A stretch of DNA of 64,000 nt, from assembly GCA_026874595.1 (NCBI GenBank), contig CM049317.1:16787382-16851381 (forward strand), given 5' to 3'. The translations under genes were made by a program, and so were the position numbers. Below are positions 12,961 through 55,558 of this stretch, in pieces. The DNA is from Sipunculus nudus. Its lineage: Eukaryota; Annelida; Sipuncula; Golfingiida; Sipunculidae. Position 1 is the first letter of the stretch, and each line of letters begins with the position of its first letter. The notes beneath the pieces were generated by a model, which did not search any database, was not told the DNA's origin, and saw only the letters and a program-made list of their open reading frames with translations.

Positions 12961-14255
12961 TGTGTATTTTTCATTACTTCTGGGATGCTTATACATACCC
13001 CTAAACTCTAAGATTATAGGTCACAGTGACCCAATTTTAGGTTTTGAGGAGAGAACTTTTGAGGAATTCTCAGGATGCATAGTGAGAAGATCCTTGGTTA
13101 TCATTTGGGCTCTTCTTTTGGTATCAAATTTTCAAATATTCTGGGGTGTGCTTATAAGCCCCATTGCTCGAAGATTATGGGTAACAGAGACCTAATTTCA
13201 TGCTTCAAAGGAAACATTTCATGGATCTCCCTGGATTTTAAGATTCTGGGTCCAATGTTTATAATTTGTGCCCTGCTTTGGTATCAAATTTTCAATTATG
13301 CTAGGGGTGCTTATAAGCCCCATAATTTCAGGTTTCATACGATATTTTTCATTGACCTCTCTGCCCTGATAACAGATGGCCGCATCTTTAAAGGTCTCAA
13401 AAATAGAGAGAAAACGCATACAAATTGGAAAAAATCCAGGTGACCCCACCAGTCTGCAAGAACTAATGAAACACTCCATTGTGAAGATGCATGCAAAGAA
13501 TCATGGCAATCAATCCACAATTTGTTGAGATACTAGAGCTTCTGTATAAAATTTTAAGTCATTCTTTGGGGTCTAAAGAGCCCCGTAGCTCAGAAATATG
13601 GGTAACAAAGATCTAATTTCAGGTTTCAAGGGATTTTAGTATTGAACTCCCAGCATGTCAAGATAGAAGATTCTGGGTCCAGTGGTTACGATTTGTGCCC
13701 TGTTAACAATGACCGCATCTTTTAAGGCCTCAAAAATAGAGAGAAAAAAATCATGAAAAATCGAAAAAATACAGGTGGCGCCACCAGTCATTAGGAATTG
13801 ATTGAACACACCATGATGAATATGCATGCAAAGAATCATGGCAAGCAATGAACTATTTGTTGAGATACTAGAGCTTTTGTATCAAATTTTTTAGTTGTTC
13901 TTGGGTGAACTTCAAAGCCCTATAGCTCAGAGGTTATGGGTAACAGAGACCTTCGTTTCCACGTTTCCAAGGAGTCTTTTAATGGGCCTCCCTGCATGTC
14001 AGGATAGACGATTCTAGGTCCAGTGGTCACGATTTGAGCCCTGTTATCAAATGACCGAATCTTTTATGGTCTCAAAAATTGAGAAAAATATTGTAAAATC
14101 AAAAAAAAAAAATACAGTTGGCGACACCTGTCCGCTTAAACCGATGAATCATTCCATGATCCATATCCATGCAAAGAATCATGGTTATCAATGCAATGGA
14201 TGACGGACAAAGGGTGATCGTTATAGCTCAGATAACTTACAGTCAGTTGAGCTTA
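12960..14255 (+). mobile_element. Repeat family B, copy 1: about 340-bp tandem units ending in a hairpin
   Basis: Tandem units of about 340 bp are marked by ATGCAAAGAATCATGG at 13491, 13827 and 14169, and by GGTAACAGAGACC at several points. One unit carries GGTGGCGCCACC at 13774-13785. The right end is a hairpin, TAGCTCA...TGAGCTT (14224-14255), preceded by a short GACGGACAAAG stretch. The same end occurs at 33674, 43006 (reverse), 46710 and 56916. Open frames inside (for example 13075-13443) are repeat-derived and show no protein family. Confidence 0.75.
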
Positions 14256-14301
14256 TTAGGTTTCATGTACTTTTAAACCCCTCTGACCATGACCTTTCAA
14301 A

Positions 14302-15394
14302 ACTAGAATACGGGTATTCGACAAGCGACTATGTGTATCCGCCAAAATCAGGGTGGAACGGGTTAAGTGAGGCATGGTTTGAGTGGCAAGGGGAAATAGA
14401 GTGAGGTGTGTTGCATATTAGCATGGATGTCTGCAGCCGAAATGTGTATATAGGTGGCGCCACCTGCCAAAAAAATCGAAATAGCTAAAAAGATGTATAA
14501 ACACGCAAAATTTTAGGCAGATAAGTAAAACCACTTCTGAGATATGAGTGATTTTAGGCCAAGGCAGACAAACAGACGGACGCTGTGCATAATGTTGGCC
14601 CAATCGTTCAAACGGTTCCCGAGATATAAGCTTGGATGTCTGCAGCGTAAACTAGAATGTAGGTGGCGCCACCTGCCAAAAAAAATCGAAATAGCTAAAA
14701 AAAGAACTATAAACCTGCCAAATGTTAGGCAGATATGTGAAACCACTGCCGAGATATGAGTGATTTTATCCAACGGCAGACAAACGGACGCTGTGCAAAA
14801 ATTGCATATGATAACGAGCTATGTGAGATCTATACACATGCAAATTTTCAGGAGGATACGTCAAACCAGTCCGGAGATATAAGCATGGATGTCTGTAGCG
14901 TGAACATGAATGTAGGTGGCGCCACCTGTCATAAAATCAAGAAAGCTATCCAGGATGTATACGCATGCCAAATTTCAGGTGAATTAGTCAAACCACTGCG
15001 GGGATATGACTGATTTTAACCCAAGGCCGACGAACAGATGGCCACTGTGCAAACATGGTTGCAGGTGGCGCCACCATTTTTTGTGTATGTTATAAAACTA
15101 TCCAAGGGCTACATTTGTAAAAAAATTATTCCTGATCGGTCAAACGCATCCTGAGATATGTGGGTTTATGTGTGGAAACAGACGCACAAATGGACGCTGG
15201 GCAGAGAGGAAAGGTCGAAGGTCAACGCAAATTGGTTAGGCACCAGTTCACATGTGACCCGATAATTGGTGTAAGTTTCGGAAAAAAATTAGTCCAGTAG
15301 TCGCAGAGGAGTTCTCCGGAAACGAATGCGGCGGCGGCGGAGGCGGAACCCGGTCAGAAACATAGTATCCGCAAAACTTCGTTTTGGCTCATAC
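14302..15394 (+). mobile_element. Repeat family A, copy 1
   Basis: It begins ACTAGAATACGGGT like the copies at 40749 and 51778 and ends with GTATCCGCAAAACTTCGTTT just after a GGC microsatellite. GGTGGCGCCACC occurs at 14453, 14662, 14915 and 15064. The 3' hairpin is partly decayed (GGCTCATAC in place of GGCGGATAC). The element starts only about 45 bp after the terminal hairpin of the family B copy, so two families sit end to end. No ORF belongs to it. Confidence 0.8.
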
Positions 15395-15904
15395 AAATAT
15401 CTTCAAGCATGATCTGAGGTCGAAGCAAAATTTCTCTTTCAACTGAGGGGCAATTTTTTTTCAATATATAAGATCCCTAAGAAGTTGCAGAGATTTTTAA
15501 TACCCCCAACCTGTGGTTGGGAACACTAATTTACACATTTTCACCGCCGGAATAGTGCATAAATACATACTCCCAGGAAAAATTACATCACTTGCAGTTG
15601 CTTCGACCCTGACAATATACTAGAGAAGGTTAGATGAAACCTTGTACCTTTGGAAATATTTAGGCGATGGGGAAAACAACAAACTTTAAATAAGTCACTT
15701 TTTCTCACTTAGCTCCTAGACTAATAGGCCTATTCGTACATCTTGGTATTCCTGGGTATATTAATATTTTTGTAGACCCTGCTTTGACCCGGCGTCTAAG
15801 CATTGCATGCTTCTTTATCAGGCCGGCGTTTAATAAAAAATACATTGTGAGGCTATGGAAGAAAAAAGCACAAAACAACACGTTGAAATAATAAAGAGAG
15901 AGCA
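15395..15904. other. Repeat-derived sequence, no gene
   Basis: It includes a second copy of AAGCATGATCTGAGGT and otherwise AT-rich sequence without recognised features. Confidence 0.45.
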
Positions 15905-16320
15905 GAGGCGGATACAGCTATTTAGAATGGGGGGGGGGGGGGGGGGGGCTCACATTGCAAGGCCGCGAAGCAGGTGGGCCGACGCTCGAAACGCTGAAAC
16001 TCTGAAGCCGTGCATACTTAGCTTAAGGATTATATAAATAAGCATTAAAAATTGGAGGTGGTTACCTCCACCAAAAAGTTTGAAAAAAAAGAAAAGTACC
16101 AATGTAAAGATTTGAAAAAGATTGGGATTGTTATATAAAAAATGGGGGGGGGGGGGTCCAGATTCCATGGACCCTCCCCCCCCCCCCCCCCCCCATCTTG
16201 ATCTGCTTGCCACTTACATAGTTATCGAGTATGAGGACTTTGGACATTGAAGAAAGTACTCGAGTGCTAGAACTGAGTACTCGATATAGAACTCGTGAGT
16301 ATGAGTACTACCATTGCAAA
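15905..16320. repeat. Poly-G/poly-C repeat with a G13/C19 inverted pair, plus GAGTACTCGAG-type repeat
   Basis: AGGCGGATACAG precedes a G20 run at 15929-15948. Further right, G13 (16144-16156) is followed by TCCAGATTCCATGGACCC and then C19 (16176-16194). TCCA pairs with TGGA and the G run with the C run, giving a long GC hairpin. Similar GCGGATC plus homopolymer fragments occur near 10430 and 38220. A GAGTACTCGAG-type repeat follows at 16216-16310. The ORFs spanning the homopolymers are artefacts of composition. Confidence 0.7.
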
Positions 16321-16374
16321 TATTTTTTATCCAACTCTGCCAAATTGCTTATTTGTGTGTGTTTTAATATGCTA

Positions 16375-16817
16375 TAATGTGCTGTGGTTGCCATTTCTTT
16401 CGCGAGGATTTCAAATTTGTGATATTCGCGAAGGGGAGAATATCAAGAAAAATTAAAACTTTGTGAAGAAGACGCCATACCTTCACTAAAGACGATTAAC
16501 TTATTCTATAGCCACGAAGGCATTTCATTTGAGCTGTTCATATCAATATTAGCATACTTTTTATGTTTCCCGTCATTCAAAGAGTGTTAATTTAAATAAT
16601 ATGAGTTCTTTTACCTGTTCAATTTTTCCTTTATCTCCTCATACAATTGATTCGACGTTGCGTGCGTATAAGGTATTTGATATTATAAAGGTTGATAAAT
16701 GTACATTCCGTAAGTTAATGTTTGGTAAAACGCGAAAGGAAATCCTCACAAAAGACCCAGGAAGTGAAACTCACGAATATTTATCCTCGCGAATATGAAG
16801 GCAACCACAGCATATTA
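16375..16817. mobile_element. MITE-like element with terminal inverted repeats
   Basis: The left end, TAATGTGCTGTGGTTGCC, is matched by the inverted right end, GGCAACCACAGCATATTA. Just inside both ends lies TCGCGAGGAT or its complement. The element is 443 bp and has no transposase. Both ends begin with TA, so a TA target duplication of the Tc1/mariner type is possible but not shown. The 65-codon ORF inside is not protein-like. Confidence 0.75.
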
Positions 16818-17329
16818 GAGCAGATTTCCACGGAAGATTTACTGTTATATTATTGCCTCTAATATATTAAATTATATGAAAGTTCTTAAATATAAGTAAG
16901 TTTATTATAGGTTATATATTATGTTAATAAAACTTAAAGAAAGAGCTGTAAGAACTACAATACTGATAGGTCATGAAGGATCCCTAAAAAGGCCCATAGA
17001 CTTCCAGTGTGGGCTGAGTGATGCTTGAAAAAAAATAAGAAGGACCTGACTAAATGCAGGAACAGAGGAAACTGACCCAAAACAGTATCACACATCTGAA
17101 CCAAGATGTCAAGGTTTGATTCAGTAACAGTCGTATATGCACGTGTAGGAATGCATCTTTCGAATCAACAGAGACATAATTACATCTGATGCATTAAACT
17201 GTAAGCCTGGTGAGCATATAAATCAGTGGGATGGTCTTGTGACCTTGAAACTTGGGATGTCGAATTAATATGGTTCTTCGCTATTGTTAGGCAACCCAAA
17301 AGTGAAAAATGTTTGACTTTACATTTACA
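16818..17329. other. Non-coding stretch
   Basis: AT-rich with fragments such as GTGACCTTGAAACTTGGGAT near 17240 that hint at the tandem repeat to the right. No gene is seen. Confidence 0.4.
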
Positions 17330-18260
17330 ATACTTTAACAATTTTTTTAGGGATTTGGGTCAAGTGCCTTTCACCTATAACCTCCTGACCCTGAAATCCA
17401 AAGGGTTAGTATATTAGTGAGTAGCCATTAATAAAAACAGTTTGAAATTCATATGTCATTTCAAACTGGAGGTATCATATGGAAACAAGTTTGAGAACAG
17501 ATGGCTCCTGTGACCTTTGACTTTGTTACCCCAAGATCGATATGAATCTTCCTTTATTGGCAGGTGAGCTGTGTAAGATGAAAGGTTAACTTTGGAAAAG
17601 TGAAAATTTATATTAAAATTTACATTGCCTCAACGATCTGTGTAAAAAGTTGGGCCCTCTGGCCGTTACCTTTGAAATCAGACACCAAATTTAAGAGAGT
17701 TCTTCCTTTAGTGGTGGCTAAATTTAAGTGAAATTTGAAAGCATATGTTAGGCCAAACTTAACTTATCATCCGGAAATTAATTTGTGGATAGATGGCTCC
17801 TGTGACCTTGACCTTTGACATTGTGAATCCAATCGATATGGATCTTTTCCTATAAGGAGGTGAGCTATATGTGCAAGATGGAAGGTCTGGGATGGAAAGT
17901 AAGGCTTTGAACGCATCCAAAATCTTTTTAAAGATTTGGTCCTTTGGAACTTTGAACCTCATGACCCCAAAACCGGTTCTAGCGTTAGTGGCTGGCTATA
18001 TACAAGTTTATTGTAAGTTTGAAATCCAAACGTCAGCCAAACTGGAATTATCCTCTGGAAACTAATTTGTGGACAGATGGCCTATGTGATCTTGGCCTTC
18101 TTTTAACCTTGTTAATCCAATATCGATAGAGATCTTCCTCTATTAGCAGATGAGCTATATTTACAAGACGGAATGTCTAGGATAAAAAGTTGGGCTTAAC
18201 TGATCCATAATCTTTTACAGATTTGGGTCCTGTGACCTTGACCTTTGTCATTTATTTCAA
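17330..18260 (+). repeat. About 288-bp tandem repeat with GTGACCTTGACCTTTGAC motifs
   Basis: Units start with GATGGCTCCTGTGACCTTTG or variants at about 17500, 17792 and 18076 (spacing 292 and 284 bp), with a further partial unit at about 18236. Each carries TGACCTTGACC-type runs and GGTGAGCTATATG-type segments. The same sequence type occurs in the family B copies at 45775 and 55860. Confidence 0.75.
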
Positions 18261-20394
18261 GTAAATACTAATGTTTTTAACAGATAATGTAAAAAATGTA
18301 TATAGACCTGTCTGCACAAGTTCAGAAATGTATAGAACTATCCGTTATAAAGGTGTTAATTTATTGACCACTTACAAATCAGCATTTGACAACACCACGT
18401 CTACGCTCTTTACACAGCGTTTTAACTATAGGCCTACTTCCTATATCGTAAGCGCTGTTTGTTTTGACCTCGTATCCTGAATTGCAATACCAGAGGGGAG
18501 CACTGTATTTTTGTCTAATCAAATGAGACCTTGTGCTGGAAGACAGAGCCAAGCGAGGAATACACAGAGCAAATTATGTTCATTTCGTTTTGAGTGACAG
18601 CTCATCTCCCTGGTAACTGTCTGAACATGCCACAGGCTCAGAGAGAATTGCCCCAGTCGTGGTTTGCTTGGGATGCCCGGCCGGTGAGCTGTAATTCAAA
18701 CGAAACATAACAACAAAGGCTGCGTGCACACCTAGCTTGCTGGTTTCAGTTCTGCAGACAACAGATACATGTCTACGCTAACACAGTCATAATGTCATAA
18801 TCGAATCGGTCGATGATGCGAGAATACAGAGGGAGCAATTAAAATTCGACCGTAAACTGATATAAAGCGGCGCTTGAAGCGCAGCTATGGGCGGAGCCAG
18901 GATGCCTGTCGAGTGTTTGTTTATTGGCATCTGGTTGGCTGCTTGTCACATCATACGCACGTTTCTTTCAGCGGACAAGGAACTGCCATCTGGTGTCTAA
19001 ATATATCATAAACGGTCATCGCTGGCAGCGTGAAAATAAGTTGCTTCTTTAGAAGCGCAAGATTTCCGCTGCCTCGGGAGCGTTCACCGCGTCTATCTAC
19101 GTGTTTGAGAAAGAGTGTTAAGCAGTTTTTAATGTATCAAAGTATATTCAATACAACACATTGCTATTAACTATTCATGCGTATTTTCTCTTTACTGCAA
19201 ACTTTTTCCTGTTTGCTCTGAATAATTTATGCAGTGTAAATAATGTTAGGGCTTATACATCTTTAAGGTCAACACCCCTTTGATAATGGGATAAAATGTA
19301 TACGTCCTCTTTGTAACATATCAGAATGTTTCGAAGCAGTTTCTATTTGTATTAGGCCTTGGTCAATAAAGTTCATGTTCAAGTTCAAATTGCATAATGT
19401 GTTGGAGGCCCCTACATCTACTGAAACAAACCAAGCAACATGTTGGTATCCAAAGTACAAACCTTTCAAAGTCCTTTTATAAATTGAGAATCCACAGCAG
19501 TGCGGACCAAATATAATCCATCACTCAGAAACATAGAACGCCTATAGACCACCACTCGCTTCGGACATTACTTAGTTAAACGAAAGTAATGTTTGCTCAA
19601 TGTACAACCCTCATTATAAGCTTGACGACGCATTCCATGTGCAACCATATGTTGCCCCTCCCCCCCCCCCCCCCAAAAAAAAAATAAATAAATAAAAAGT
19701 AAAAGTAAACCAACAGTACTTTTATACAAGTTATAACATGTGAGGGGGACATTCCCTCGTAAAACAAGGCTCGTAATACTTTAAGCTCATTTTTGTCAAC
19801 ACATGTAAAAGGAGTTTTGTTGATGCTATTTTACGTGGCTCTTGTGTGTTTTAGTGTGAATAGGATTGTCCTGTGCCATTTTTTTATAATTAGCCCCTCA
19901 GTTGCCATATTAAACTAGACGACTTGGGCCATTCTTGATTTTTTAGTTGTTTTTTTTTATGTGGGTGTTCTTTGTGTGGCCTTGTGTGGGTGCAGCTATG
20001 AAAGTGCAGTTCGTCACTAGGAGAACATTCAGTCAATTGGCCAGGGGCGTGAATAGAGGGGAGATACGGATATATATCCAACCACTTTAAAGCAAGTGGG
20101 GGTGGTCAATGTTGAGAGAATAATATTTCTACACTGAAAATGAAATATATATATAATGTCCATTTAGGACTTAGATTCCATTTCTGAGTTTAATATGAAT
20201 GTACAACTAAACTTGGTTTAGAAATAACATATACATATACTTAGCCATGCGGATGTCTTATATATGATGATTCTCAAATTAATGTTAAGTATATTTTTCC
20301 TTGATCTCTTCATTCAAACAGCAAAGGAATTTATATCTTTCATGCTTAATAGTTATACAATATACTATATAAATTATCTTTATCTTTCTTGTAG
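18261..20394. other. Upstream region of the receptor exon
   Basis: No coding exon is clear. Around 18860-18900 the sequence is less AT-rich, with a GATATAAAGCGG stretch and a GGGCGGAGCC box, so an alternative promoter or non-coding exon is possible. A C15 run lies at 19660-19674. The 3' end (about 20370-20394) is a pyrimidine-rich tract ending TTTCTTGTAG, the acceptor for the receptor exon. Confidence 0.4.
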
Positions 20395-20395
20395 G

Positions 20396-21478
20396 ATGAA
20401 CGTGCTACTGTCAACGGTGGCTAATAGTATTGTTAATGAAGCACTTAATGATTCCTACCAGTCCGTGCTGCCGACAAAGCTACCTTACACCATGAATACG
20501 GAAGACCCAGAGTATGCTGATGCGAACAAAAGCGCAACCAACGAACCTCCGCTTCCTTATTGGACGACTCAGGCTCTGACGTCATTGGATGATATCACGG
20601 CATCCGGTTGGGTCTTTTTCAACAATGCCAAAATAGCCCTAAAAGCAAGCAGCGTGCTGTTCAACTTAATTGCCATAGCACTGATTCTGCGAAAGAATAT
20701 CCGAAGCTTTGTCATTTCGTGGTACTTGGGTTGTTTATGTGTGGCACATATCATCCACTATATAGTAGATTTTACAATATATTTTAATAACACCACTTTA
20801 TACAACCTCAAAGGTTACAGATGCTTTGGGGCGGCAGTTATTATGACAACCGCTTGCTCTGTATCTGCGGCAAACACGGTTGCAATATGTGTAATGCAAA
20901 TGGGGGCTGTGGTGTTTCCCTTTAAGGCCAAAACCTTATGGGCGCACAAAAGAGTTGCATTGGGAGTACTTTGCACAGTTATTATCTTCAGTGCTCTCAA
21001 TTCAATTCTTTTACTTTTTGCAGGATCTGGAAATATAACATGTACCAATCATGGTGTTGGCATCACTGCCCTTGTTGTTTACCAGACAATAGCAGTTGTT
21101 TGTTTGATAATCTTAAGCATCATCACTCTGAGATATTTGATCATAAACAAACGACGGGGCCGAAGTCTAAACGCAAACACCCAGGACCACTTCAATGATG
21201 CTATCATCAAATTTAAGGTCACATCGTTCACAATATGTCTGGTCTTTTGCATTTGCAAATGTCCATTTATTTTAACATTTCTAACCCAGTTCTTCATGGA
21301 TAGTCAGTTGACCTTTGCCCGGACACTCACCAGTGTGTTCCCAGATATATTCCGAGCCAGTCCCTTCTTTGTCTACATTTGCACAAGTGCTTACATGAGA
21401 TCAGAACTGAAGCGGTGTTTTCTGAGACGATCCGTACTGACCGCCCAAAAAACCAATACCAAAATGTCGGCGAAATAA
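20396..21478 (+). CDS. Divergent rhodopsin-like (class A) GPCR, single coding exon
   Basis: The 360-residue product has an outside N-tail (about residues 1-78) with NDS (18) and NKS (44) glycosylation sequons, then seven hydrophobic helices: about 80-98, 104-130, 143-174, 186-208, 222-250, 272-300 and 307-332. C143 at the start of TM3 and C216 in loop 2 would form the conserved disulfide. TM1 keeps the Asn (N90). Three activation motifs are altered: DRY is MQM (167-169, in MQMGAVVFP), the TM6 CWxP is CKCP (287-290), and NPxxY is SPFFV (322-326). A basic helix-8-like tail, RSELKRCFLRR, follows. I start at 20396 because TTTCTTGTAG|G is a strong acceptor immediately upstream. The frame stays open back to 20264, but that part is intronic in character. 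A poly(A) signal follows at 21636. The ligand is unknown; a lineage-specific orphan receptor is likely. Confidence 0.85.
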   Translation: MNVLLSTVANSIVNEALNDSYQSVLPTKLPYTMNTEDPEYADANKSATNEPPLPYWTTQALTSLDDITASGWVFFNNAKIALKASSVLFNLIAIALILRKNIRSFVISWYLGCLCVAHIIHYIVDFTIYFNNTTLYNLKGYRCFGAAVIMTTACSVSAANTVAICVMQMGAVVFPFKAKTLWAHKRVALGVLCTVIIFSALNSILLLFAGSGNITCTNHGVGITALVVYQTIAVVCLIILSIITLRYLIINKRRGRSLNANTQDHFNDAIIKFKVTSFTICLVFCICKCPFILTFLTQFFMDSQLTFARTLTSVFPDIFRASPFFVYICTSAYMRSELKRCFLRRSVLTAQKTNTKMSAK

Positions 21479-21543: not shown

Positions 21544-21546
<3 letters not shown>

Positions 21547-25275: not shown

Positions 25276-25329
25276 GCAAGCATTTAAATGAAAGCGGGTA
25301 CCTTCACCAAAAAAAATTTTTTTTAAATC

Positions 25330-26160
25330 TGTCAATAAATATTTTCAACATATTATGTCAATGAAGATTTTCACCATTTATGTCGCACAATATGACACTT
25401 AGGACTGTCAACATGTATGTCTCAAATTATATGAATGAACATTATAAACATGTATGTCTAAATGTTCACCATATATGGCGCAAAATATATCAATGAAGAT
25501 GTTCACCATGTATATCACAAAATATATCAGTAAAGATGTTCAACATGTATGTCACAAAATATATCAGTGAGAATTTTAACCATGTATGTCGCAAAATTTA
25601 TCAATGAGGCAGTTGACAATGTATGTCGCAAGATATATAAAATCCTCTTGTCCCTTATTATGTCTTTGATGCACCTAATGTTTTTATGGCGCAAAATATA
25701 TCAATGAAGATGTTCACCATGTATATCACAAAATATATCAGTAAAGATGTTCAATATGTATGTCTCAAAATTTATCAATGAAGATATTCACCATGTATTT
25801 CGCAAAAATTATAAATGAAGATGTTCACCATGTATGTCGCAAATTATGTCAATGATTATTTTCAAAATTTATCAATGAAGATATTCACCATGTATGTCGC
25901 AAAATTAATAAATAAAGATGTTCACCATGTATGTCGCAAATTATGTCAATGATTATTTTCACTTTTTTATGTCGCAAGATATATCAATGAATATTTTCAC
26001 CATGTATGCCGCAAAATATATCAGTGAAGATGTTCTTCATGTATGTAAAACATATATCAATGAAGAAGTTCACCATGTATGTCACAAAATATATCAATGA
26101 GAATTTTAACCATGTATGTCGCAAAATTTATCAATGAGGCAGTTAACAATGTGTATCGCA

Positions 26161-26206
<46 letters not shown>

Positions 26207-26770
26207 TTCCTCTGGTCACTTATTATGTCTTTGATGCACCTAATGTTTTTAATTGTCATATTATATTGGACAAACCTGATACAAAAAAATTATGTATGAC
26301 GCAAAATATATCAGTGAGGATATTTACCATGTATGTCGCAAAATTTATCAATTAAGATGTTCACCATGCATGTCGCAAAATATGTCAGTGAAGACATTCA
26401 CCATACATGTCGCAAAACTGATCAATGAAGATATTTACTATGTATGTCGCAAAATTTATAAATGAAGATGTTCACCATGTATGTCGCAAATTATGTCAAT
26501 GATTATGTTCACTTTTTTTTTTGTCGCAAGATATATATCAATGAATATTTTCACCATGTATGTCGCAAAATATATGTCAATGAGGCTTTTCAATACAGTT
26601 AAGATTAGAGGTGTAATCTGTTTAAAGAATTTTAATGTCTATAATTACAAAAATATAATCCAATTTTCCTCTTTTCATCTGTTATGTCTTTGAAGCACTT
26701 GATAATTTTGCAGTTTTTTAATTGTCATATATAAATCTCATAAACCTGATACAAAGAAAATATGTATGTT
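25330..26770 (+). repeat. 37-bp minisatellite with interspersed longer units
   Basis: Units of 37 bp contain ATATCAATGAAGATGTTCAC and CATGTATGTCGCAAA. Spacing is 37 bp where units are intact (for example 25511 to 25548). The array is interrupted three times by a related segment containing TTATGTCTTTGATGCACCTA (about 25657, 26222, 26680), so there is a higher-order structure. A (TA)n run lies at 26164-26203. The unit is not a multiple of three, and the short M-Y-V-A-K-type frames are by-products. Confidence 0.9.
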
Positions 26771-32129: not shown

Positions 32130-33704
32130 AAACAACTACTAGAGGAGTTGGGTTGGACACCTGGATCAACTGTGGCTGGGCATTAGCTGCCTGGCTGCCC
32201 CAGTGTATGCTTCGCTCAAGCATGCATAATCTGATGAAAGGTCAACAAGGTCAACATACAGGTGACTGAAGAGGGGCTGGATAAAGCCTGGGTCTGACAT
32301 GGTCTCATAAAATCATTAATAAAAGCTACAATATTTGGCCAATTTCTTTCAGCTTTCTAAACAACAAAGATGAAATCCTTATGTGTGCATAATATGAAAA
32401 TTATATAAACAGTGCTCTCAGGAAACAAACGTGCCATGGTCAAAGTTGGGCAAAATTTAAGGTACTAATTTTATATTGATACTAATAACTTATAAAATTT
32501 GAAAACTTCATAACTAATTTTTGGTATTCAATTGAATCTTGATTAAATGTTACATCCCTGACAAAAAATCTCTAGCTTTAGCAATCCTCTTGTTAAGGGA
32601 GTAAATATATTTCTTGATTTTTTAAAAAGTGCATTATGTTTGGGCCCATAAATTAAAACAATTACTGACATCATTTCTGGCATGTCCATAGTGAATGAAT
32701 AAAAAAATATGTATATTATATATGATCAAAGTCAGATCAGTGGTTTTGATATTAGGCAGTCTTACAGTGGAACAATGGGTTTTTAATGGAAAAATGAATT
32801 TTTTCATTAATATTTCGAAGGAATTAAGTCCTAGTGATAAAACTCTTGGCATGGTAGGGGATTTTGGAGACATCTAACTGTATGCTAAATTTAAGGAACT
32901 TAGAGCTGAAGCTTGGGAGCTGAGCTCTAGCAAACTGCATAACACTAGCTCGATGTAAACTTGATGTGACATGGTGCTTGAAAACTTGAATAAAATCTAC
33001 AGTTTTTGATCAACTGGTTTCAAATTTTTGGTGTTAACAGACAAAATGCTAACAAAAACATGCTGTGAAAATTAAATCCACAGTACTTACAGGAAAAAAA
33101 CTTGCCATGGTCAAACTTGGGCAAAATTTAAGGTACCAATTTTATATTTTTGCCAATATTTAAAAATATTTAACAGATTTTGATCTAATTATTAGTATAC
33201 AATTGAATTTTGATCAATTAAAGTTGTATTACTGAAAAAAAGTCCCTACCTTTACACTTTCGGTCTTAAGTGACCAAATATCTTTCCTGATCTTTTTACA
33301 AAGTGCATTATGTTTGGGCCCATAACTTTTTTAAATTAAATAATACTGACCTAATTTCTCGCATGTACATAGGAACTATATAGAGGAATATGTATGGTAA
33401 ATATGAAGAAAACCAGATGAGTGGTTTTGATATTAGGCAGTCCTGAAGTGTGAAAATAGATTTCTAATAAAAAATTGAGGTTTTTCCTTAATATCTCAAA
33501 GGAACGAAGTCCTATTGAGCCAATTTTCGGCATGGTAGGAGATTTTGGGATCATCTAACTGTATAGCGAATTTCAGATTTGTAGGTCCAATGGTGTCGAA
33601 ACGTGCCTGTCTTACGGACGGACAGACGGACAGACGGACGGACGGACGGACGACGAGCAATGGACCACGACTATAGCTCAAATGACTTATAGTCAGCTGA
33701 GCTA
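32130..33704 (+). mobile_element. Repeat family B, copy 2, with 671-bp direct repeats
   Basis: Two internal units start at CAGGAAACAAACGTGCCATGG (about 32420) and ACAGGAAAAAAACTTGCCATG (about 33090), 671 bp apart. They share GTGCATTATGTTTGGGCCCA and CATCTAACTGTAT. A GACGGACG microsatellite (33613-33655) precedes the terminal hairpin TAGCTCA...TGAGCTA (33674-33704). The left boundary is approximate. No protein is encoded. Confidence 0.75.
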
Positions 33705-38815: not shown

Positions 38816-41800
38816 GTTCGTCGCACACCTTCTCATCTCAGACTAAATTAGATACTGTTGACTAATATGTATTGTAATTAATGCAAATTCTACTCCGATG
38901 TTAAGCATTGAATATAATTCCTTTTTATATGATAAGCTTGGCGTTTCTCTTAAACTGACATTGAAACATGTAAGGGAGTCCTTTAATATAAATTTTCGCA
39001 ATTTCCTTAAATTTGTGGAGAGGAACTTGACTCCCGCCCAATAGTTTATTTGGATACTATATCAACTATTCACAATTGTTAAAATTACAAAAGAAGTTGT
39101 CTGTTCATAAAAAAATATTTCGTATCACATCTATAGTAGTGATATACAGCAATAAAAATACAAAGACTATTAAATTTCTGTAATAAACATGGCTAAGTTC
39201 TCCGGAACGCTGATATTTAAAAACATTTCAACACTTTGACACATTTTTGTCTATAAGTGATTTATTTTTTGGATTCAAGGCGAAATAAGATTCTCATTAT
39301 TGGCTAAAAAAACAAACAAATATGCAGGTGGCTCCTTATTCGGGATATGATTTTTAAAACAGGTCAAATTTCTTTTTAGGGGCCCCTGCATTGACATTAA
39401 GCATCTGGTCACCGTGGGGTCCATGTATTCAAGGTTGGAAAAACAAGTATCGTGACGCTAGGTACGGCGTGAAACTGCATCACTCAAATCTTGGAAAGCA
39501 AATCGAGAATATAAAATGCAATAGTCAAAAGAAACATGAAGATCAAGATTTCATGTATCACGGTACTTCATATACAAACATGTCAGCAACCGGGCGAACT
39601 CGACAGTATGAACAGTATGAAACACATGCAGAATCACCGGGTAGGAACACCAAAGGAACAACAAGTACGCTACTAGAACGAAAGGGTAAGGTATGCGTTC
39701 ATTCCCGTTCGTGTGTGTGTGTGTGTTTGTTTACAACATACCTCACGCAAACATAAACTGAATCTCACTCGATTTTCAGGGCATTTCGTCAAGGGCATGG
39801 GGCATGGAAGAAGCGGTAGAGCTTTTGGTATGTTGAAAAAAAGTGATTGCGTTCACACGGCAAAAAGTATAATTCGGCTAATTTGACCTCGAAGATCCTG
39901 GTTAAGGTCACTGGGTTTTATTTGGTGTACCAAATTTTAGGACAAAATGATAAATACTTCAAAAGTAGCGAGGTTAACAAAAAAATCAAATTTCGGTAGA
40001 TTGGACCTGGAAGATGAAGGTCAAGGTCAACGGCTTTCGAACTCCCCCCTAATTTTGGGATGAACAATGATTGTTAAATGTTTGGAGGAAATTAAGCAGC
40101 CCTTAAAAAATTATCGCGCTCATAACATTTCCTGAAAACGACGACGACTGACGACGAAGATGATGGCACTGAAAACAACTTCTCCCATGGGGAGAGAGGA
40201 GGGAGGGGGCGCGGGGAGAGGTATTATTAACACATCTGTTACAAGAATATTGTAATTAGTAAATTATTTAATTAATTGGTTGTAGTTTAAGGCTGGCATA
40301 CACGTTGCATACTGACTCTACTCAACAGGTAAAAACAAAGTTGTTAAGTCGCATCGCAGTTCTAATGCTTGAAAACGACGCGATTTAACCAAAGTCGCCA
40401 CCTGTCGGCGTCAGACCTGTGTGGGTGTGTGGCAGTGTCAGAAAAAAAGTGTCTTTTGAAGTCGTGTCGCTTAGGAGCACATTTCACAACCGATCACACC
40501 TAAGTCTCTGACAACATGAGTACCTAGGCCATGAACTCGCCTGGGCCACACATCTCATGGTATAGAGAGAGGCAATATTACAAAGGCACTGTGTCATTGT
40601 ATATTATTAGATTTGTACAGCCAGTATCCCCAATGCAATGGCAACATAATATCACATATAGAATATGTATTACAGGAAATCGACTATTATATTTTTTAAA
40701 CTTACATTATATTAAACTAATTTTTTTTCAGCTACAGGGTGGATAAAAACTAGAATACGGGTAGTCGACAAGCGACTACGTGTATCCGCCAAAATCAGAG
40801 AAGGACGGGTGAAGTGAGGCATGGATTGAGTGGCAAGGGGATATAGAGTTACATATGTAAAATATTAGTATTGAATCTCTGCCACATAAACATGATTGTA
40901 GGTGGCGCCACCTGTTATTTGAACGAGAAACTATCCAAGATATATACACATGCAAAATTTCAAGTGGAAAAGTCAAACCACTGCAGAGATATGAGTGATT
41001 TTATCCCACAGCAGACAAACAGATGGACGCTGTGCAAACATGGTTGCAGGTGGCGCCACCTTTTGTTGTGTATGTTATAAAGCTATCCCAGGGCTACATT
41101 TGTGTAAAATTTTTTTCCGGATCGGTCAAACGGTTCCCGAGATATGAGCTTGGATGTCTGCAGCGTTAACATGAATGTAGGTGGCGCCACCTGTCATAAA
41201 ATCAAGGAAGCTATCTAGGATGTATACGCATGCCGAATTTTAGGTGAATTAGTCAAACCATTGCAGAGATATGAGTGATTTTAACCCCAGGCAGATGAAC
41301 AAATGGACACTGTGCAAACATGGTTGCAGGTGGCGCCATCTTTTGTTGTGTATGTTATAAAGCTATCCCAGGGCTACATTTGTGTAAAATTTTTTTCCGG
41401 ATCGGTCAAACGGTTCCCGAGATATATGGGTTTATGTGTGGAGCGTTAACGTGAATGTAGGTGGCGCCACCTGTCATAAAATCAAGAAAGCTATCTAGGA
41501 TGTATATGTATTCCAAATTTTAGGTGAATTAGTCAAACCACTGCAGAGATATGAGTGATTTTAACCCCAGGCAGATGAACAAATGGACACCGTGCAAACA
41601 TGGTTGCAGGTGGCGCCACCTTTTGTTGTGTATGTTATAAAGCTATCCCAGGGCTACATTTGTGTAAAATTTTTTTCTGGATCGGTCAAACGGTTCCCGA
41701 GATATATGGGTTTATGTGTGGAGCGTTAACGTGAATGTAGGTGGCGCCACCTGTCATAAAATTGAGAAAGCTATCTAGGATGTATATGCATGCCAAATTT

Positions 41801-43843
41801 TAGGTGAATTAGTCAAACCACTGCAGAGATATGAGTGATTTTAACCCCAGGCAGATGAACAGATGGACACTGTGCAAACATGGTTGCAGGTGGCGCCACC
41901 TTTTGTTGTGTATGTAATAAAGCTATCCCAGGGCTACATTTGTGTAAAAAAAATTTCCGGATCGGTCAAACGGTTCCCGAGATATATGGGTTTATGTGTG
42001 TAAACAGACGCACAAACGGACGCTGGGCAGAGACGAAAGGTCAGAGGTCAAGGTCACTTGGTTAGGCACCAGTTCACATGTGACCCGATAATTTGTGTAA
42101 GTTTCAGAAAAATCTGTCCAGTAGTCTCAGAGGAGTTCTCCGGAAACGAACGCGGCGGCGGCGGCGGCGGCGGCGGAACCCGGTCAAAAACATAGTATCC
42201 GCAAAACTTCGTTTTGGCGGATACAATGATTGAACGAGAATATAATGATTGATATATAAAATGACAAATGTAACAATGATTTTGCGTTCATGGCACTGAA
42301 TTATCTGAATTATCATTTATGTTAAATTGAACATGCTGCATCTGCTGTCGATCAAGTTACGTTTAGTGGTTAGGTGTATGCACCAATTGATTGCCAGTGA
42401 GCAGATTCAAAAACTTGGGTGGGGGGGGGGGGGGCGGGGGACTGTACAAACTGGAGGATACTTGCTCAGTCGGGACGATGAATCGGTTGGCGTCGCGACG
42501 CACGTGTTTTCTGGTTTTTTTTTATTTGAGAAACTCTCATTAATGACACAGCCTTCGGTCTTTTTTACAGCAGTCATGAAAAGTATGATGTAATCTCATT
42601 GTTTCTCTTCATAATGCAATAATCCACTGTGTCGATTGTCCCAAAGGGTTTTCAAATGGCTTCAGATATGGACATAAAGTAATAAACGGTACATGGATCC
42701 CCAGTTGCTATGCTCTTCAGTTCACCTTAGCAAATTGGGCCCAGGCTAGAAATGGATGTAGCAGACTGAAAGGTTCCCTTCTTAGCATAGAAACAGAGAG
42801 TGAGCAACGTCACATAGAGAAGTTGCTTACAAAGAAGAGAGAAGGTATGTCCCTACAAGCAGTTCCTGTCCCAACTCTGTTGAGCCAGTAGGCTTTTTAT
42901 CTACTATCTACCAACGTATAGTATAACTTTTCCTAGCGGGCGCCTTCATAAAGCGGGCACCTATGTCTAGTGGGCAGTTATTGGCAGTCCCGTTTTTAGC
43001 TCAGCTTACTGAAAGTTAAGCTTTAGCGATCACTATTTGTTCGTCGTCCGTCTGTCCCTCCGTCTGTCGTACCGTCCGTCCGTTATTAGGGCACAAATCG
43101 TAACCGCTGGGCCTAGAAACTTCAAACTGAAAAATCATGGAGGTTAAAAAAATTCAACTTGGAAAACCTTTATCCTCCGAGCAATGGGGTTTTTGCAAGT
43201 AACCCGCAGAATAATAAAAAGAATGACACAAAGATGCAGTATCTGAATAACTAATGCATAGATTGCCATGCTTCTTTTCATACATATTGATCATGGAGTG
43301 TTGCACCAGTTCCTAAAGACTGGTGGCGCCATGTGAAATTATATTACATTTTCTCTATTTCTGAGCCCTTCAAATGAAGAAGTCTGGCCCTCAATAGGAC
43401 TCAAATCGCAACCGTTATACCTTGAAACTTTTAACTTTACATGAAGGGAGGTCCCAGGCAAATACCCTTTGAAACCTGAAATAGGTCATAGTGACCTATA
43501 TTTCAAATTCATCTGAGCGTCATGAACTTTGGGCCATCAATTTCTCCTCATTATCTATATCAATATAGAGGTTTAACCATATATATTTTTTTAATATATA
43601 CTTACGTAACAAAAAAAAGAGAAGAAAAAAACACTGTGCATTTGATATATCTTGGTTATTCTTTTAGAAGGCAAAACTAGATTATGGTGGACATCGGGAA
43701 AAAATGTCGAGGGAAAATGGATATGGCGATCAACTGGCGAACCCTTTGCTTTCAGCAACTGGGAAACAAGTCAAGCAGGCATCCAAGGGTGGCCAGAGTC
43801 TTCTCTTGTCCTGATGGCCAATAGAAAATGGTGTGGACTCTAA
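38731..43843 (+). CDS. Split gene for a small secreted C-type-lectin-domain protein, probably frameshifted at its end
   Basis: Four exons join in frame (38731-38815, 39380-39685, 42647-42844, 43668-43843), all through phase-1 introns, giving about 254 residues. The order is a signal peptide, a linker with a WSPWGPC motif that recalls the start of a thrombospondin type-1 repeat, and a C-type lectin domain. Lectin landmarks are SCYALQFTLANWAQARNGC, then SLLSIETESEQ, then KWIWRSTGEPFAFSNW. The domain ends early at LMANRKWCGL-stop. One frame over, immediately downstream, the expected closing sequence reads NGVDSNAYYICE, so the reading frame appears broken near 43825-43832. The family's C2 and C3 cysteines are both absent in this tail. 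A role as a secreted sugar- or pathogen-binding protein is likely from the family. The gene holds repeats in introns 2 and 3. It may be a pseudogene, a variant allele or a sequence error. Confidence 0.7.
39380..39685 (+). CDS. Exon 2: linker with WSPWGPC motif
   Basis: The acceptor is TTTCTTTTTAG|GG and the donor AAAGG|GTAAGG. The exon has 101 full codons, beginning APALTLSIWSPWGPC and rich in Lys, His, Ser and Thr afterwards. Only one further cysteine (IENIKCN) follows, so a full thrombospondin repeat is not present. Both ends are phase 1. Confidence 0.6.
40749..42224 (+). mobile_element. Repeat family A, copy 2 (in intron 2 of the lectin gene)
   Basis: It opens ACTAGAATACGGGTAGTCG, with a hairpin of GTAGTCG and CGACTAC (40761-40779). 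It closes with GTATCCGC...GCGGATAC (42195-42224) after a (GGC)n microsatellite (about 42151-42176). The body is a tandem array of 280 bp with GGTGGCGCCACC at 40901, 41049, 41180, 41460, 41609, 41740 and 41889 and a one-base variant at 41329. Alternate spacings are 149 and 131 bp. There is no ORF, so it is non-autonomous. Flanking bases on both sides are AA. Confidence 0.88.
42647..42844 (+). CDS. Exon 3: first half of the C-type lectin domain
   Basis: The exon has 65 codons, with SCYALQF, WAQARNGC and LLSIETESEQRHIEKLL matching the first strand, helix 1 and helix 2 of the fold. The donor is GAAG|GTATGT. The acceptor CCCAAAG|GG is chosen for phase. The frame stays open upstream as VDCPKGF, which resembles the usual CPxGW start of lectin domains, so the true exon may begin earlier, but no better acceptor is seen. 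Confidence 0.7.
43004..43560 (-). mobile_element. Repeat family B, copy 3 (reverse, in intron 3 of the lectin gene)
   Basis: The hairpin end TAGCTCA...TTAAGCTTTA at 43006-43034 and a CGTCCGTCTGTCC microsatellite (43043-43083) lie on the left, so the element is inverted. TGGTGGCGCCATG near 43320 is a variant of the shared palindrome. Confidence 0.65.
43668..43843 (+). CDS. Exon 4: second half of the C-type lectin domain, premature stop
   Basis: The acceptor is TTATTCTTTTAG|AA. KWIWRSTGEPFAFSNW is the hallmark segment around the long loop. The carbohydrate-contacting EPN/QPD position reads EPF, so classical calcium-dependent sugar binding is doubtful. After LMANRKW the frame ends CGL-stop, while an adjacent frame carries YYICE. 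Loss of one AATGG from a tandem pair would explain the shift. Confidence 0.7.
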
Positions 43844-45774: not shown

Positions 45775-46746
45775 ATGATCGATAAACCAATTTGTGAATG
45801 AAGGGACTCTTTGACCTTCGCCTTTGACATTGTGTTCCCAAAATCAAACAGAATTGTTCCCAATTGGCAGGAGCACCACATGTGGAAGATGAAAGATTTG
45901 AGATAAAAAGTTAAGCTTAAAATGCATCCATACTCTTTTTAAAGGAAAAGGTTCTGTGACCTTGACCGCTATCCTCTACACCAAAAAATCAACAGAATCC
46001 TGCTTTCGAGGTGGGCCACAAATATATGAAGTTTGAAATCCATATATCATTCAAAACTGGAATTATCTTTTGGAAACAAATTTGACGGACGTACTGAAAG
46101 ATGCACAGTCTGACAGACGGCCGGATAATAATAAACATAGTTTCAGGACACCAGATGTCACCACAGATGCGAATCTGATAGTATCAATATAATTTGGCAA
46201 TTTTGAAATAAAGGAAAAATGCAACAATAAAGAAAAAAAAACATGTGGCGTCACCAGTCTTCAGGTATTGAAGAAAAAAGTCAAAATCAATAAACACAGC
46301 AGGTTTAGGGACTCTATATGAAACCATCGACGAGAACTGTCATAACTGCCATTTGACAGTCTATAAAACACCAAAAAATCGTAAAAATTAAAAAAACATG
46401 GATGGCGCCACCAGTTTTCCTGAACTTGCAACACTGGTCATGGTCAATATTCAAGGCAAGATTCATGGCATTCCAAGCATTAATTATCAAGATACTAGAT
46501 GTTTTGATTCAATTTTTAATTAATCTGGGGGTACTTACCAGCCTTATGGTCGCAATGACCTAATTTAAGGTCTCAAAGGAGATTGTTTAGTGACCTCTTT
46601 ACATATTTACTTAAAAGTTTCTGGGGTTAGTGGTTATGATATGTGCCTTGCTAACGGATGGACAGACGGCGGGATGGCGAGGCGGCCGACGGACAAAGCG
46701 CCATTGCTATACCTCAGTATAATGACTTTCATTCAGCCGAGCTTAA
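45775..46746 (+). mobile_element. Repeat family B, copy 4
   Basis: It starts with the TTTGACCTTCGCCTTTGACA repeat type, contains GATGGCGCCACCAG (about 46404), and ends with a GACGGACAAAG tract and a decayed hairpin (about 46710-46745). Confidence 0.65.
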
Positions 46747-47221: not shown

Positions 47222-47311
47222 TGGCATGTTTAATGTTGGTCACATCATATTTCTGAAGTCTGCCAGAGTGAAGAGCACTGCACGCCTACTGCGCGATAGT
47301 GGCAAGCTAAG

Positions 47312-49700: not shown

Positions 49701-49705
<5 letters not shown>

Positions 49706-49742
<37 letters not shown>
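49706..49742. repeat. (TA)n array
   Basis: Dinucleotide run just upstream of a LINE relic, with a second short TA tract at about 49750-49770. Confidence 0.95.
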
Positions 49743-49745
<3 letters not shown>

Positions 49746-49793
49746 TTATATATAAATATATATATATATTTACAAACTAGTTTCTAGTTTGAA

Positions 49794-51605: not shown

Positions 51606-51777
51606 AACAAGGCCTACAGGCCTAATGCGAACCTGTGCAAAGTTTGGGAGTATGAATAGAGGATTATTTTTAAAATTTCTTATTGATCCTCTTATGTCCT
51701 GCATATCTACCTTGGTATTATGATTTCAGCAAAATGGACGTTTCGGACCTGCAAATTTCGGAATAGGACATTTTTAA

Positions 51778-53498
51778 ACTAGAATATAGGTAGTCGACAA
51801 GCGACTACATGTATCCCACCGAAATCAGAGTGGGATGGGTGAAGTGAGGCAGGGATTGAGTGACAAGGAGAAATAGAGTGAGGTGAGTTGCATATTAGCA
51901 TGGATGTCTGCAGCTGAAATGTGTATGTAGATTGCGCCACCAACCACAAAATCCAGAAAGCTGTCCAGGCTATATACTTATGCAAAATTTTAAGCAGATA
52001 AGTCAAACCACTACTTGTATATTAGTGATTGTATCCAACAGCAGAAAAACAGAAAGATGCTGTGCAAAAAATGATTACAGGTGGCGCCACCAAGTTTGCG
52101 AATGATAAAGAGCCATGTGAGATCAATACATATGCAAAGTTTTAGCCCAATCGGTCAAAAGTATCCCGAGATATGAGCTTGGATGTCTGCAGCGTAAACA
52201 TGAATGTAGGTGGCGCCACCTGTCATAAAATCAAGAAAGCTGTCCAGCATGTATAAACCTGCAAAATTTTAGGCAGATATGTCGAACCACTGCCAAGATA
52301 CGAGTGATTTATCCTACGGAAGAAAACAGACGGACCCTGCGAAAAATTTTTGCAGGTGGCGCCACCAGTTTTGCGTATGATAAAGAGCCATGGGAGATCT
52401 ATACACATGCAAAATTTTGGCCAAATCGGTCAAATGGTTCCCGAGATATGAGCTTGGATGTCTGCAGCGTAAACGTGAATGAAGGTGGCGCCATCTGTCA
52501 TAAAATCAAGAAAGCTGTCTAGGATGTAAAAACCTGCAGAATTTCAGGTGGATAAGTCAAACCACTGCCGAGATATGAGTGATTTTATCCCACAGCAGAC
52601 AAACAGGAGGATGCTGTGCAAAAATGGTGGCAGATGGCACCACCAATTTTGTATATGATTAAGAGCGATATGATTTCTATACATATGCAAAATTCAGGGG
52701 GATATGTCAAACCAGTCCTGAGATATAAGCCTGAATGTCTGCAGCGTAAACATAAAAGTAGGTGATGCCACCTGCCACAAAATCGAGAAAGCTAGCCAAG
52801 AAGTATAAACATGCAAAATTTTAGGCAGATATGTCAAACCACTGCCGAGATATGAGTGATTTTATCCCAAGGCAGACAAACAGACGGACACTGTGCAAAA
52901 ATGATTACAGGTGGCGCCACCAAGTTTTCGAATGATAAAGAGCCATGTGAGATCTATACATATGCAAAATTTTAGCCCAATCGGTCAAAGGTTTCCCGAG
53001 ATATGAGCTTGGATGTCTGCAGCGTAAACATGAATGTAGGTGGCGCCACCTGTCATAAAATCAAGAAAGCTGTCCAGCATGTATAAACCTCCAAAATTTC
53101 AGGTGGATAAGTCAAACCACTGCCGAGAAATGAGTGATTTTATCCCAAGGCAGATGAACAGATGGACGCTGTGCAAAATGGTTGCAGGTGGTGCCACCAT
53201 TTTTAGTGCATGTTATAAAGCTATCCAAGGGCTACATGTTTAGCCTGCTCGGTCAAACGGTTCCCGAGATATGTGGGTTTATGAGTGGAGACAGACGCAC
53301 AAAGGGACGCTGGGCAGAGAGGAAAGTACAGAGGTCAACCAAAAATGAGGGCGCAGCTCCTCACATGTGACCCAATCATAATTCCGAATTTAAAAAAATA
53401 CTGCCAAATGGTTCCGGAGGGGTTCTCCGGAACCTAAACGGTGGCGGCAGCGTCCGACTGAAAACAAAGTATCCGCAAAACTCTGTTTTGGCAGATAC
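51778..53498 (+). mobile_element. Repeat family A, copy 3, inside family C copy 2
   Basis: It opens ACTAGAATATAGGTAGTCG with the GTAGTCG/CGACTAC hairpin and closes with the GTATCCGC-like hairpin ending GCAGATAC. Exact GGTGGCGCCACC copies lie at 52080, 52209, 52355, 52910 and 53039, with variants near 52484, 52633, 52761 and 53187. Spacings alternate near 129 and 148 bp. Flanks are AA on both sides. Compared with the empty site at about 10773, no host sequence is lost beyond one or two bases. Confidence 0.88.
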
Positions 53499-54073
53499 AA
53501 CGAGGATGTATCAGTCAGAATATTTTGGATATGTTCTTTTTACCAGGGAGGATTAATGGAACAGATGAACGGAAAATTTGGCAGCATGGTATCGGAGAAG
53601 AACATTTTTTTAATGTTTTTTAGCTTCTTCTAAATCCAGTTAGCCAAGAAATAAGCAAAATCCGATAGAATTTTTTAGATGACAAATTTTTGCAAAAAAT
53701 AGGTGATGCTAGCTCCTGTCCTTTTTGAGATAGCTATGACGCACGACGGACGAACGAAGACGAACGAAGCCACACCATTGCATAAGCTCACAGATTCAAT
53801 AAAAAATGCTAATCAAGTTTTTTCAAACAGTTGAAAGATATAGTTCCAATAATTCTAATCTGGGCATTCTGCATCTAGACGATAAGTCTGTAGACGTCTA
53901 GACGCTATGTCTAGACGTCTAGACACATTGTCTAGACACCAGAAAGAGCCAGGTCAGTTGCCATGGTGATGTCTGGACCCCACCTAGTTGTACTGAGTTA
54001 CCTCTTGATTTGGCTGCTGAAACTGGGCATGTTGTCAAATCTGTTTTCAAACACAGAAAGCCTTTTTCAATTG

Positions 54074-54937
54074 GCTACGCTGTTTTTACAGCTGCATTTA
54101 CCCAATCTATTCTTATAAAACTGTGTTACGGAACCTAATATAAACAGATCAAGTATGCATGATGAACACAAATTCTGTAACAAAGATGAAAAAAATCAGA
54201 TTCGGTGACACTAGGCAGCGTGAAATGTGTAGGGGAATGAAAAAGAAGTCAGTGGTTTTTTTGTTAACAAATAACTATAATTTATTCTTAAAACAACCCT
54301 TACAATACAATACACTAAATCAATACAATTATAAAATAAAACAGCGGTATAGCAACAAGTCAATACAATCACATAGAAAAATAACGTGCACAGTACCTGG
54401 ATACCAACACCGTCACCACGATAAGTCCTTTAAACGTAAACACTCGGAGAATGACAGTCCAGTGGAAAGTTCTTGCGACAACCCAGAAAGTAAACTGAAG
54501 TCCAAATGTATAAAATCCAGGAGAAAGTTTTTGAAAATCTATAATTGCCGCATTAGTCGGATAAGGTCCTAGAATCTGACACACGTTTCTGCGTCCGCCG
54601 GAATCTTCTCTGCTCTCTGCCCTTCCGTTCTAAAACACACCCCTTTATATATCTTCACACCTCAAACCGAGAATTTTCCACTTCTCGAATAGTCTATAAG
54701 ATCTTGCACAACACAGTCTACACGCATTTCAGGAATTCTCCAGAAAAAACAGCGCTGTGTATCTCCACATACCAGGCTCATCACGTGATCAACGACCAAG
54801 CGTGGAAACAAAAGGTTAAACATGACAACTAGAGTTCAACCAGTACGGATTAAACATAGAATGTAATACGCGGCCAGACACGAGCGCCACAACAGGAGCT
54901 TCGCCCGTCTCACACAATAAAAAGAGCACCTGTAACA
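54074..54937 (-). mobile_element. LTR-like insertion in family C copy 2
   Basis: Read on the minus strand it opens TGTTACAGGTGC, has a TATATAAAGG box (about 54643-54652), then AATAAA (54281-54286) and GCTGCCTAGTGT, the same order as the unit at 23168-23951. About 95 bp beyond a further TGTTACA (to 54074) are absent from the family C paralogue and may be internal retrotransposon sequence. The 137-codon plus-strand ORF at 54159-54572 lies antisense to it and is spurious. Confidence 0.6.
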
Positions 54938-55558
54938 ACTGGCGGAATCCTACCATAGAATAATTCTTGTAAAGTTTAAACCAATCAGCTTAACAGTTTC
55001 TTAAAATAAGTGTATAATCTAGAAAAGTCTAAACTTACATTTTTTGCTTGTAAAAACATATCAATGTAGGTGGCGCCACCAACACCTCAATTTCAGATAT
55101 GACTCATGTGACAAACATTGGCATAAAATTTGGTGATGACAGCTCCAGCTGTTTCTGAGATTTCAAGTTCAGTATGCTTTTTTTTTGCACAGATGACTAA
55201 GTTCAACTTCCTGTAACTCGGTAAAATTTCAACAAACTTGAAAGAGATTGTTCCAAGGAACATTTCTTTGAAATATTGGACAATTTGGCTGGACAGTTTA
55301 AAAAAAAAAAGATTTTTAAAGGTTTTTAAGCTTTTTCTCTATAAAATCTAAATTAATGCAGATAACCAATAATAAGCTCCAGGGCACCAAGTTTCACACG
55401 TGACTAATTCTTACATGTAATTTGGAGCTGCTACCTCCGACGGTTTTTGACATACAGCCATGGACGGCGGAAAGCCAGCCCTGGACGGCGGACGGCGTAC
55501 GGCTGACGGACGACGCTGCGCCATCGCATAAGCTCACAGGTTCGCTAAAAATATACAG

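Follow-up and report, generated by a model that had tools for sequence, protein, structure and literature searches.

The 12-nucleotide (nt) palindrome GGTGGCGCCACC occurs in 18 exact copies in a 64,000-nt stretch of the genome of Sipunculus nudus (assembly GCA_026874595.1, contig CM049317.1, termed C12 here), which starts at C12:16,787,382 and is referred to as the window. We propose, with a probability of roughly one half, that the palindrome is a putative protein-bound site used by the mobile elements that carry it, and one of two old boxes of the unit that makes up their central repeats. It is carried in the central repeats of HINE-type elements, which are non-autonomous Helentrons and whose 5′ ends here are of at least three different kinds. 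This kind of carrier is known; the extent and constancy of the palindrome across families are unusual. HINE central repeats are usually seen as passive satellite cargo, and a palindrome kept across different ends suggests that the cargo serves the element, as well as providing one short bait for finding its factor.

The preliminary description of the window claimed 18 exact copies, and every one was borne out at its position. One belongs to family A (13774..13785); family B contributes four at 14453..15075 (14453, 14662, 14915 and 15064), seven at 40901..41900 (40901, 41049, 41180, 41460, 41609, 41740 and 41889) and five at 52080..53050 (52080, 52209, 52355, 52910 and 53039); and the last belongs to family C (55069..55080). 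None of 100 dinucleotide shuffles of the window produced a copy. When up to two mismatches are allowed, the window contains 32 sites (18 exact, five with one mismatch and nine with two), compared with 0.46 expected. The abundance extends to the whole genome (1.4265 Gb, 17 large contigs), where a count over 1,426,538,692 bases gave 111,729 exact copies against 14 of the reversed-letter control, and 218,178 sites against 575 when one mismatch is allowed. The density in the window is approximately 3.6 times the genome mean. The genome-wide list of exact matches includes all 41 exact sites that were read in the DNA of contig C1 between 120 and 941 kb.

Evidence for constraint comes from units recruited by their flanks alone. 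Family consensuses with the palindrome masked were used to search 254 kb of DNA, comprising the window (picked by the finding itself) and 19 loci at fixed positions. This gave 47 units spanning the palindrome slot, 31 in the window and 16 in the loci, after exclusion of 12 matches that failed to span it; among the 47 slots, those at 14806 and 10928 are deletions or doubtful alignments, and that at 52634 is one base off and truly has two mismatches. The block test masked one 12-nt block at a time and realigned all 47 units to the consensuses, which derive partly from the same copies; the palindrome had the lowest score of 108 blocks, at 1.26 mismatches per 12 nt, compared with 1.57 for the best of the 107 flank blocks and a flank median of 2.53. 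Exact palindromes are present in 26 of the 47 units, against a median of 11 and a maximum of 20 for exact flank blocks. It had been asked whether the palindrome is more conserved than its flanking bases across copies; when units are recruited in this way, it is. Among the eight units of the oldest class, with a flank identity of less than 0.75, the palindrome again ranks first of 108 blocks, yet none of the eight copies is exact. The two arms fare alike, with 17 changes at positions 1–6 and 13 at positions 7–12 in units with no more than three mismatches.

Copies that have landed in the genome show no clear sign of protection. Within the same region of C1 (120–941 kb), the exact flank 16-mer TGTCATAAAATCAAGA of subfamily B1 occurs in 20 copies, 12 of which have an exact palindrome, and an exact flank 22-mer of family C occurs in 11, five of which do; the numbers are small and have no matched control. 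Beside these perfect flank words, palindrome change per site is ~4% for B1 and ~6% for C, as computed by hand. The possibility that the palindrome mutates like its flanks, which the preliminary description set against its own view, is thus realised so far as single copies are testable, but not for the flank-recruited units. The divergence of flanks between units seems to combine changes in the source elements with later decay, while the palindrome seems to show later decay only. Landed copies lose the palindrome, and its benefit is therefore probably to the element, more than to the animal where each copy lies. We infer selection at the level of the element lineage, not of the host at individual sites. 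The case also shows how an animal genome can come to hold more than 110,000 identical sites with no clear sign of one-by-one retention.

How the families came to share the palindrome was examined in 69 distinct exact sites from the window and the genome loci, once duplicates and sites too near the ends of loci had been dropped. All except a truncated unit (L012_8561) were sorted into ten families or subfamilies (A, B1, B2 and C to I). Because the exact palindrome was the means of gathering the families, the intactness of its 12 adjacent positions in all ten consensuses is subject to ascertainment. Flank identity among the consensuses averages 46%, and eight of 138 flank columns are invariant. 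Twenty-two of the 45 family pairs outscore all 200 shuffles (for example B2–I with z = 13.4, B1–I 12.2, A–G 9.0, B1–D 8.8, A–E 5.3, E–I 4.6 and B1–C 3.4), and 23 do not (for example A–B1 with z = 2.7, A–C 1.9, A–H 0.3, G–B1 0.1 and C–H −0.6). Family A is linked to B and C indirectly, via E and G. A second, GAGATA-like box is present at 50 of the 68 sites, always 73–78 nt past the palindrome; it was not found within the range searched, 60–95 nt past the palindrome, at the other 18, among them every one of the four sites of D and H. A stricter match, GAGAT[AT] at 72–77 nt, is encountered at 0.6% of random positions in the window. The extended site reads T-R-Y-A-GGTGGCGCCACC-W-R-T, with A at −1 in 67 of 68 sites, C or T at −2 in all 68 and A at +1 in 47, in agreement with the earlier statement that the form AGGTGGCGCCACC is usual.

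The simplest reading of these comparisons would be one superfamily by descent. Sharing is probably due mainly to ancestry, because 22 of the 45 pairs outscore all shuffles, with constraint in addition. The claim that families A, B and C share little else is right only in part: many family pairs retain weak flank similarity, one register and the second box. The other possibility set against the preliminary view, that the three families align throughout and share the palindrome by simple ancestry, is borne out in part: B1–C outscores all shuffles, whereas A–B1 and A–C do not. Ancestry alone, in which the unit goes back to a single founder repeat and a functionless palindrome survives by luck and recent bursts, is nevertheless unlikely. 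The related pairs are what it would predict, as is the loss of the palindrome from landed copies; it accounts poorly for 12 adjacent positions that are intact (if ascertained) in ten consensuses with such divergent flanks, and for the first rank of the palindrome among blocks in flank-recruited units. The idea that conservation suggests a bound site keeps the support of this block test, and loses ground to shared ancestry and to the decay of single landed copies.

Several observations weigh against a bound site. The palindrome itself served to find the families. The second box (near +80) is almost equally conserved, with 1.57 mismatches compared with 1.26, and the palindrome ranks seventh of 108 blocks in the middle class of units (n = 17) and third in the youngest (n = 22). 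When an apparent divergence per site is estimated from exact and one-mismatch counts, the palindrome, taken over all families and ages, comes to 7.4% and the B1 flank 16-mer to 3.4%, although the two sets differ in age and make no clean test, because only the youngest B1 copies are sampled by the 16-mer. Proximity to element ends cuts both ways. A palindrome with at most two mismatches lies within 2 kb of all six B-type, five of six C-type and seven of 16 A-type 5′ end matches, compared with 457 of 4000 random 2-kb stretches, which speaks for the proposal; that only seven A-type matches have one nearby speaks against it. The end matches listed take in the second arm of certain hairpins, and palindromes belonging to neighbouring elements are also counted. 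Some C units (10928 and 53645) have no palindrome. In favour of the proposal, the genome also encodes Helentron proteins, with at least 143 matches to PF14214 (150 of 195 candidates scored); in one autonomous Helentron that was read completely, a single frame of 2208 amino acids (aa) combines Rep, PIF1 helicase, endonuclease and OTU domains. Against it, this Helentron contains no palindrome within two mismatches over 10 kb, and 12 loci of ~3.5 kb around Rep domains contain none within one mismatch, most element ends lying beyond the sequence covered. As to ends that would match those of the HINEs, the same 10 kb has no A or C end and only two B-like words, each with three mismatches and inside the coding frame.

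If the palindrome is a protein-bound site, its role can be outlined as follows. A unit with two old boxes, the palindrome and the GAGATA-like box, would make up the central repeats in several families of HINE, and active source elements would be selected to retain the palindrome as a candidate protein-binding site that aids propagation of the element. It may recruit a host DNA-binding, chromatin or replication factor, or may be read in a replication intermediate. The binder would be dyad-symmetric, i.e. dimeric, as suggested by the similar conservation of both arms and by an extension that is partly symmetric (RYW...WRT). Because the palindrome is common to elements whose ends differ, the binder is more likely to be a host factor than a transposase specific to one type of end, and CTCF could be one candidate factor.

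A recombination or replication signal is a rather improbable explanation. Here, the palindrome would promote breakage and joining, would sit where arrays grow and shrink, and would be carried along by amplification. Of the 16 junctions mapped in a mollusc satellite, 13 lie at a 12-bp palindrome, but the same paper detected no statistical link for the BIV160/Cg170 satellites (PMC5139131). In S. nudus, the irregular spacings of 209 and 253 nt in the first B copy of the window fit deletions across the palindrome, as judged by eye, and a palindrome immediately precedes the end of the L012 array. Only a few junctions of this kind were seen, and several C copies have one site only, ~430–455 nt from the element end.

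Host-level function, in which copies act as CTCF-like insulator or enhancer sites under selection on the animal, is more doubtful still. The half YAGGTGGCGCC fits the CTCF core YAGRKGGCRS in the forward orientation of the unit, where Y is found in 68 of 68 sites and A in 67 of 68, followed by GGTGGCGC; YA flanks 143,725 of 223,458 site sides genome-wide. A fit on both strands, as originally described, is confined to sites with TR as the 3′ flank, nine of the 18 in the window; an A at +1, present in 47 of the 68 sites, breaks the reverse-strand core. As a CTCF site, the palindrome would be a pattern match, mostly on one strand. We take the mouse element HS+44 to be a CTCF site. A guide RNA for this element contains GTGGCGCCACCT (PMC13083895). 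CTCF is recorded in molluscs (PMC10658182), which is relevant only if the source was molluscan, and Helitrons are stated to hold almost two-thirds of the HSF-1 motifs in Caenorhabditis elegans (PMC6927752). Against selection on the animal stand the absence of exact palindromes from the eight oldest units and their frequent loss beside perfect neighbouring words. In addition, both arms are conserved alike, though CTCF needs no second arm, and position −4 is mostly T and not the A of the vertebrate CTCF motif. CTCF sites spread by transposable elements in mammals have the YAGRKGGCRS core in common with the sites described here; the latter differ in forming a perfect palindrome.

HINE copies of different families share a strand over ~100–400 kb (up to ~0.9 Mb) and then switch, as seen on contig C1 from 120 to 21,645 kb, the contig that all of the following orientation tests cover. 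Between 120 and 941 kb, all 41 exact sites (27 elements, families A to I) lie on one strand, while the strands are nearly equal genome-wide. Among the matches listed, 56 B1 elements (up to 5.0 Mb) form 13 strand runs against 25.4 when shuffled, a number as low being reached in eight of 100,000 shuffles, or in 192 of 100,000 after merging within 20 kb. For family C (up to 21.6 Mb), 96 of the elements listed form 28 runs against 46.0, with none of 100,000 shuffles as low, or 113 of 100,000 after the same merging. Listed C pairs less than 50 kb apart are on the same strand in 27 of 29 cases, compared with about half beyond 0.4 Mb. The strand of C agrees with that of the nearest B in 23 of 24 cases among the matches listed (12 of 20,000 shuffles), but when neighbours closer than 3 kb are skipped the agreement, at 21 of 24 among these matches, is not significant (1181 of 20,000). 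In the window, between 11499 and 55067, the unit at 43322 alone carries the palindrome-plus-box signature on the minus strand only, and all other detected units carry it on the plus strand.

These strand domains are a possible effect of replication-fork direction or of intron strand, and selection against one orientation in introns is the simpler rival. In bacteria, IS200/IS605 elements track the direction of replication (PMC5371812), and strand-coherent HINE domains would make fork-direction insertion of eukaryotic rolling-circle elements testable. It is highly improbable that the more than 110,000 directional CTCF-core-like sites, in strand-coherent domains of ~0.1–1 Mb, constitute an oriented chromatin or replication code, or a read-out of fork direction at insertion.

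The repeat unit may resemble the core of Drosophila DINE-1. HINE or DINE-1-like elements are noncoding and are laid out as a 5′ subterminal inverted repeat (subTIR) with a complementary inverted repeat, a microsatellite, central repeats, and a 3′ subTIR with a stem-loop; the B elements have the same layout, and the available part of that description mentions no cross-family internal palindrome (PMC4067079). Cg_HINE of the oyster Crassostrea gigas has central repeats of mostly 140–180 nt and two conserved segments common to otherwise dissimilar clusters, as here, a resemblance by description and not by letters; GTCC-type microsatellites behind the A and C 5′ ends are also like those of oyster HINEs (PMC7492417). 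The bivalve satellites BIV160/Cg170 share the feature of two conserved motifs, and DTC84, of the DTC84/pearl elements, bears a conserved palindrome close to the junction of its repeats, both being likened by description only; the spacings found here (129–149, ~280 and ~336 nt) are unlike those of either group (PMC5139131). Caenorhabditis Helitrons with HSF-1 sites are rolling-circle elements that spread a short factor site, as is proposed here, although binding was measured there (PMC6927752).

The HINE label holds firmly for family B; for A and C it is probable, because these two are delimited at their 5′ ends alone and one A-type end folds weakly (33655–33695, z = −1.7). All three B elements of the window lie on the minus strand. 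Read in this sense, each starts with a 5′ hairpin composed of the subTIR GTATCCGCCAAAAC and its complementary inverted repeat, with folding scores of z = −6.8 and −4.1 against shuffles for the two copies folded, and the element ends are T..T. A CCG-type microsatellite was flagged behind the 5′ end in two of the three copies. Central tandem repeats of ~280 nt consist of half-units of 129–131 and 148–149 nt. The 3′ subTIR is present in two of three copies (14335 and 40782) and was not found within two mismatches in copy 3; a 3′ stem-loop with stem GTAGTCG/CGACTAC is present in both copies folded. The B elements contain no open reading frame of at least 150 aa.

Copy 1 (14301..15396) comprises the 3′ stem-loop and subTIR region at 14301–14347, four exact palindromes and the 5′ hairpin at 15365–15396. 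Copy 2 (40748..42226) contains ~280-nt tandem dimers with seven exact palindromes and one with a single mismatch, followed by a GCG/CCG microsatellite at 42152–42176 and the 5′ hairpin at 42195–42226. Copy 3 (51777..53500) is built of ~277-nt dimers, with five exact palindromes, mutated ones at 51930, 52484, 52633, 52761 and 53187, and the 5′ hairpin at 53469–53500.

The 5′ ends of family A (AGCTCAGCTGACT...) and family C (GCGAACCTGTGAGCTTATGCGATGG...) are both unlike that of B, and GTCC-type microsatellites accompany many, not all, A and C end matches. Family A units at 13429..14253 (minus strand) have sites at 13439, 13774 and 14117, spaced by 335 and 343 nt, and are delimited only at the A-type 5′ end (14241–14253). 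Two family C units on the minus strand are also delimited at the 5′ end only: 11476..11964, with a one-mismatch palindrome at 11501 and a 5′ end bearing a GTCCGTC microsatellite, and 55045..55545, with the exact palindrome at 55069, ~440 nt from its 5′ end (~55521–55545). An A-type HINE lies on the opposite, plus strand at 42998..43340, with its 5′ end at 42998 and a diverged palindrome (two mismatches) at 43322, and an A/G-type HINE occupies 46244..46743 on the minus strand, with its 5′ end at 46731–46743 and palindromes at 46401 (one mismatch) and 46244 (two). Ends or units of A and C type without the palindrome are located at 33675–33691, 11068, 10928 and 53645, with related palindrome-bearing ones nearby. 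Repeats of 21 nt rich in TCTAGACG adjoin or lie within C-type elements at 11175–11226 and 53874–53937. The autonomous Helentron is located on the minus strand at L068:1807–8433 (C11:50.38 Mb), where its open 2208-aa frame carries DUF6570, OTU, Helitron_like_N, PIF1 and Exo_endo_phos domains and is adjoined by a 251-aa STPR frame.

Candidates pursued outside these families were set aside. The pattern AGGTGGCGCCACC, followed after 60–90 nt by GAGATAT, retrieved two viral and six bacterial stretches, all eight of which were judged to be chance matches by GC content and flanks. Published matches to the letters of the palindrome include a silkworm guide RNA and the mouse guide at HS+44. A hairpin formed by the palindrome itself was dismissed by reasoning alone, as it would have no loop, and a comparison of 10–58 kb of the window with Rfam returned nothing at gathering score.

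Other features of the window include a single 404-aa frame at 20264–21478 that resembles a membrane protein and has no Pfam match, and 37-nt tandem repeats with longer-range duplications at 25313–26575. Retroelement pieces are found at 57294–58905, where one frame encodes a zinc-binding domain of integrase type (PF17921). The first part of the window (1–5999) is occupied by a G+A-rich array of 33-nt minisatellite repeats, with higher-order periods of 66 and 99 nt and very strong GC skew.

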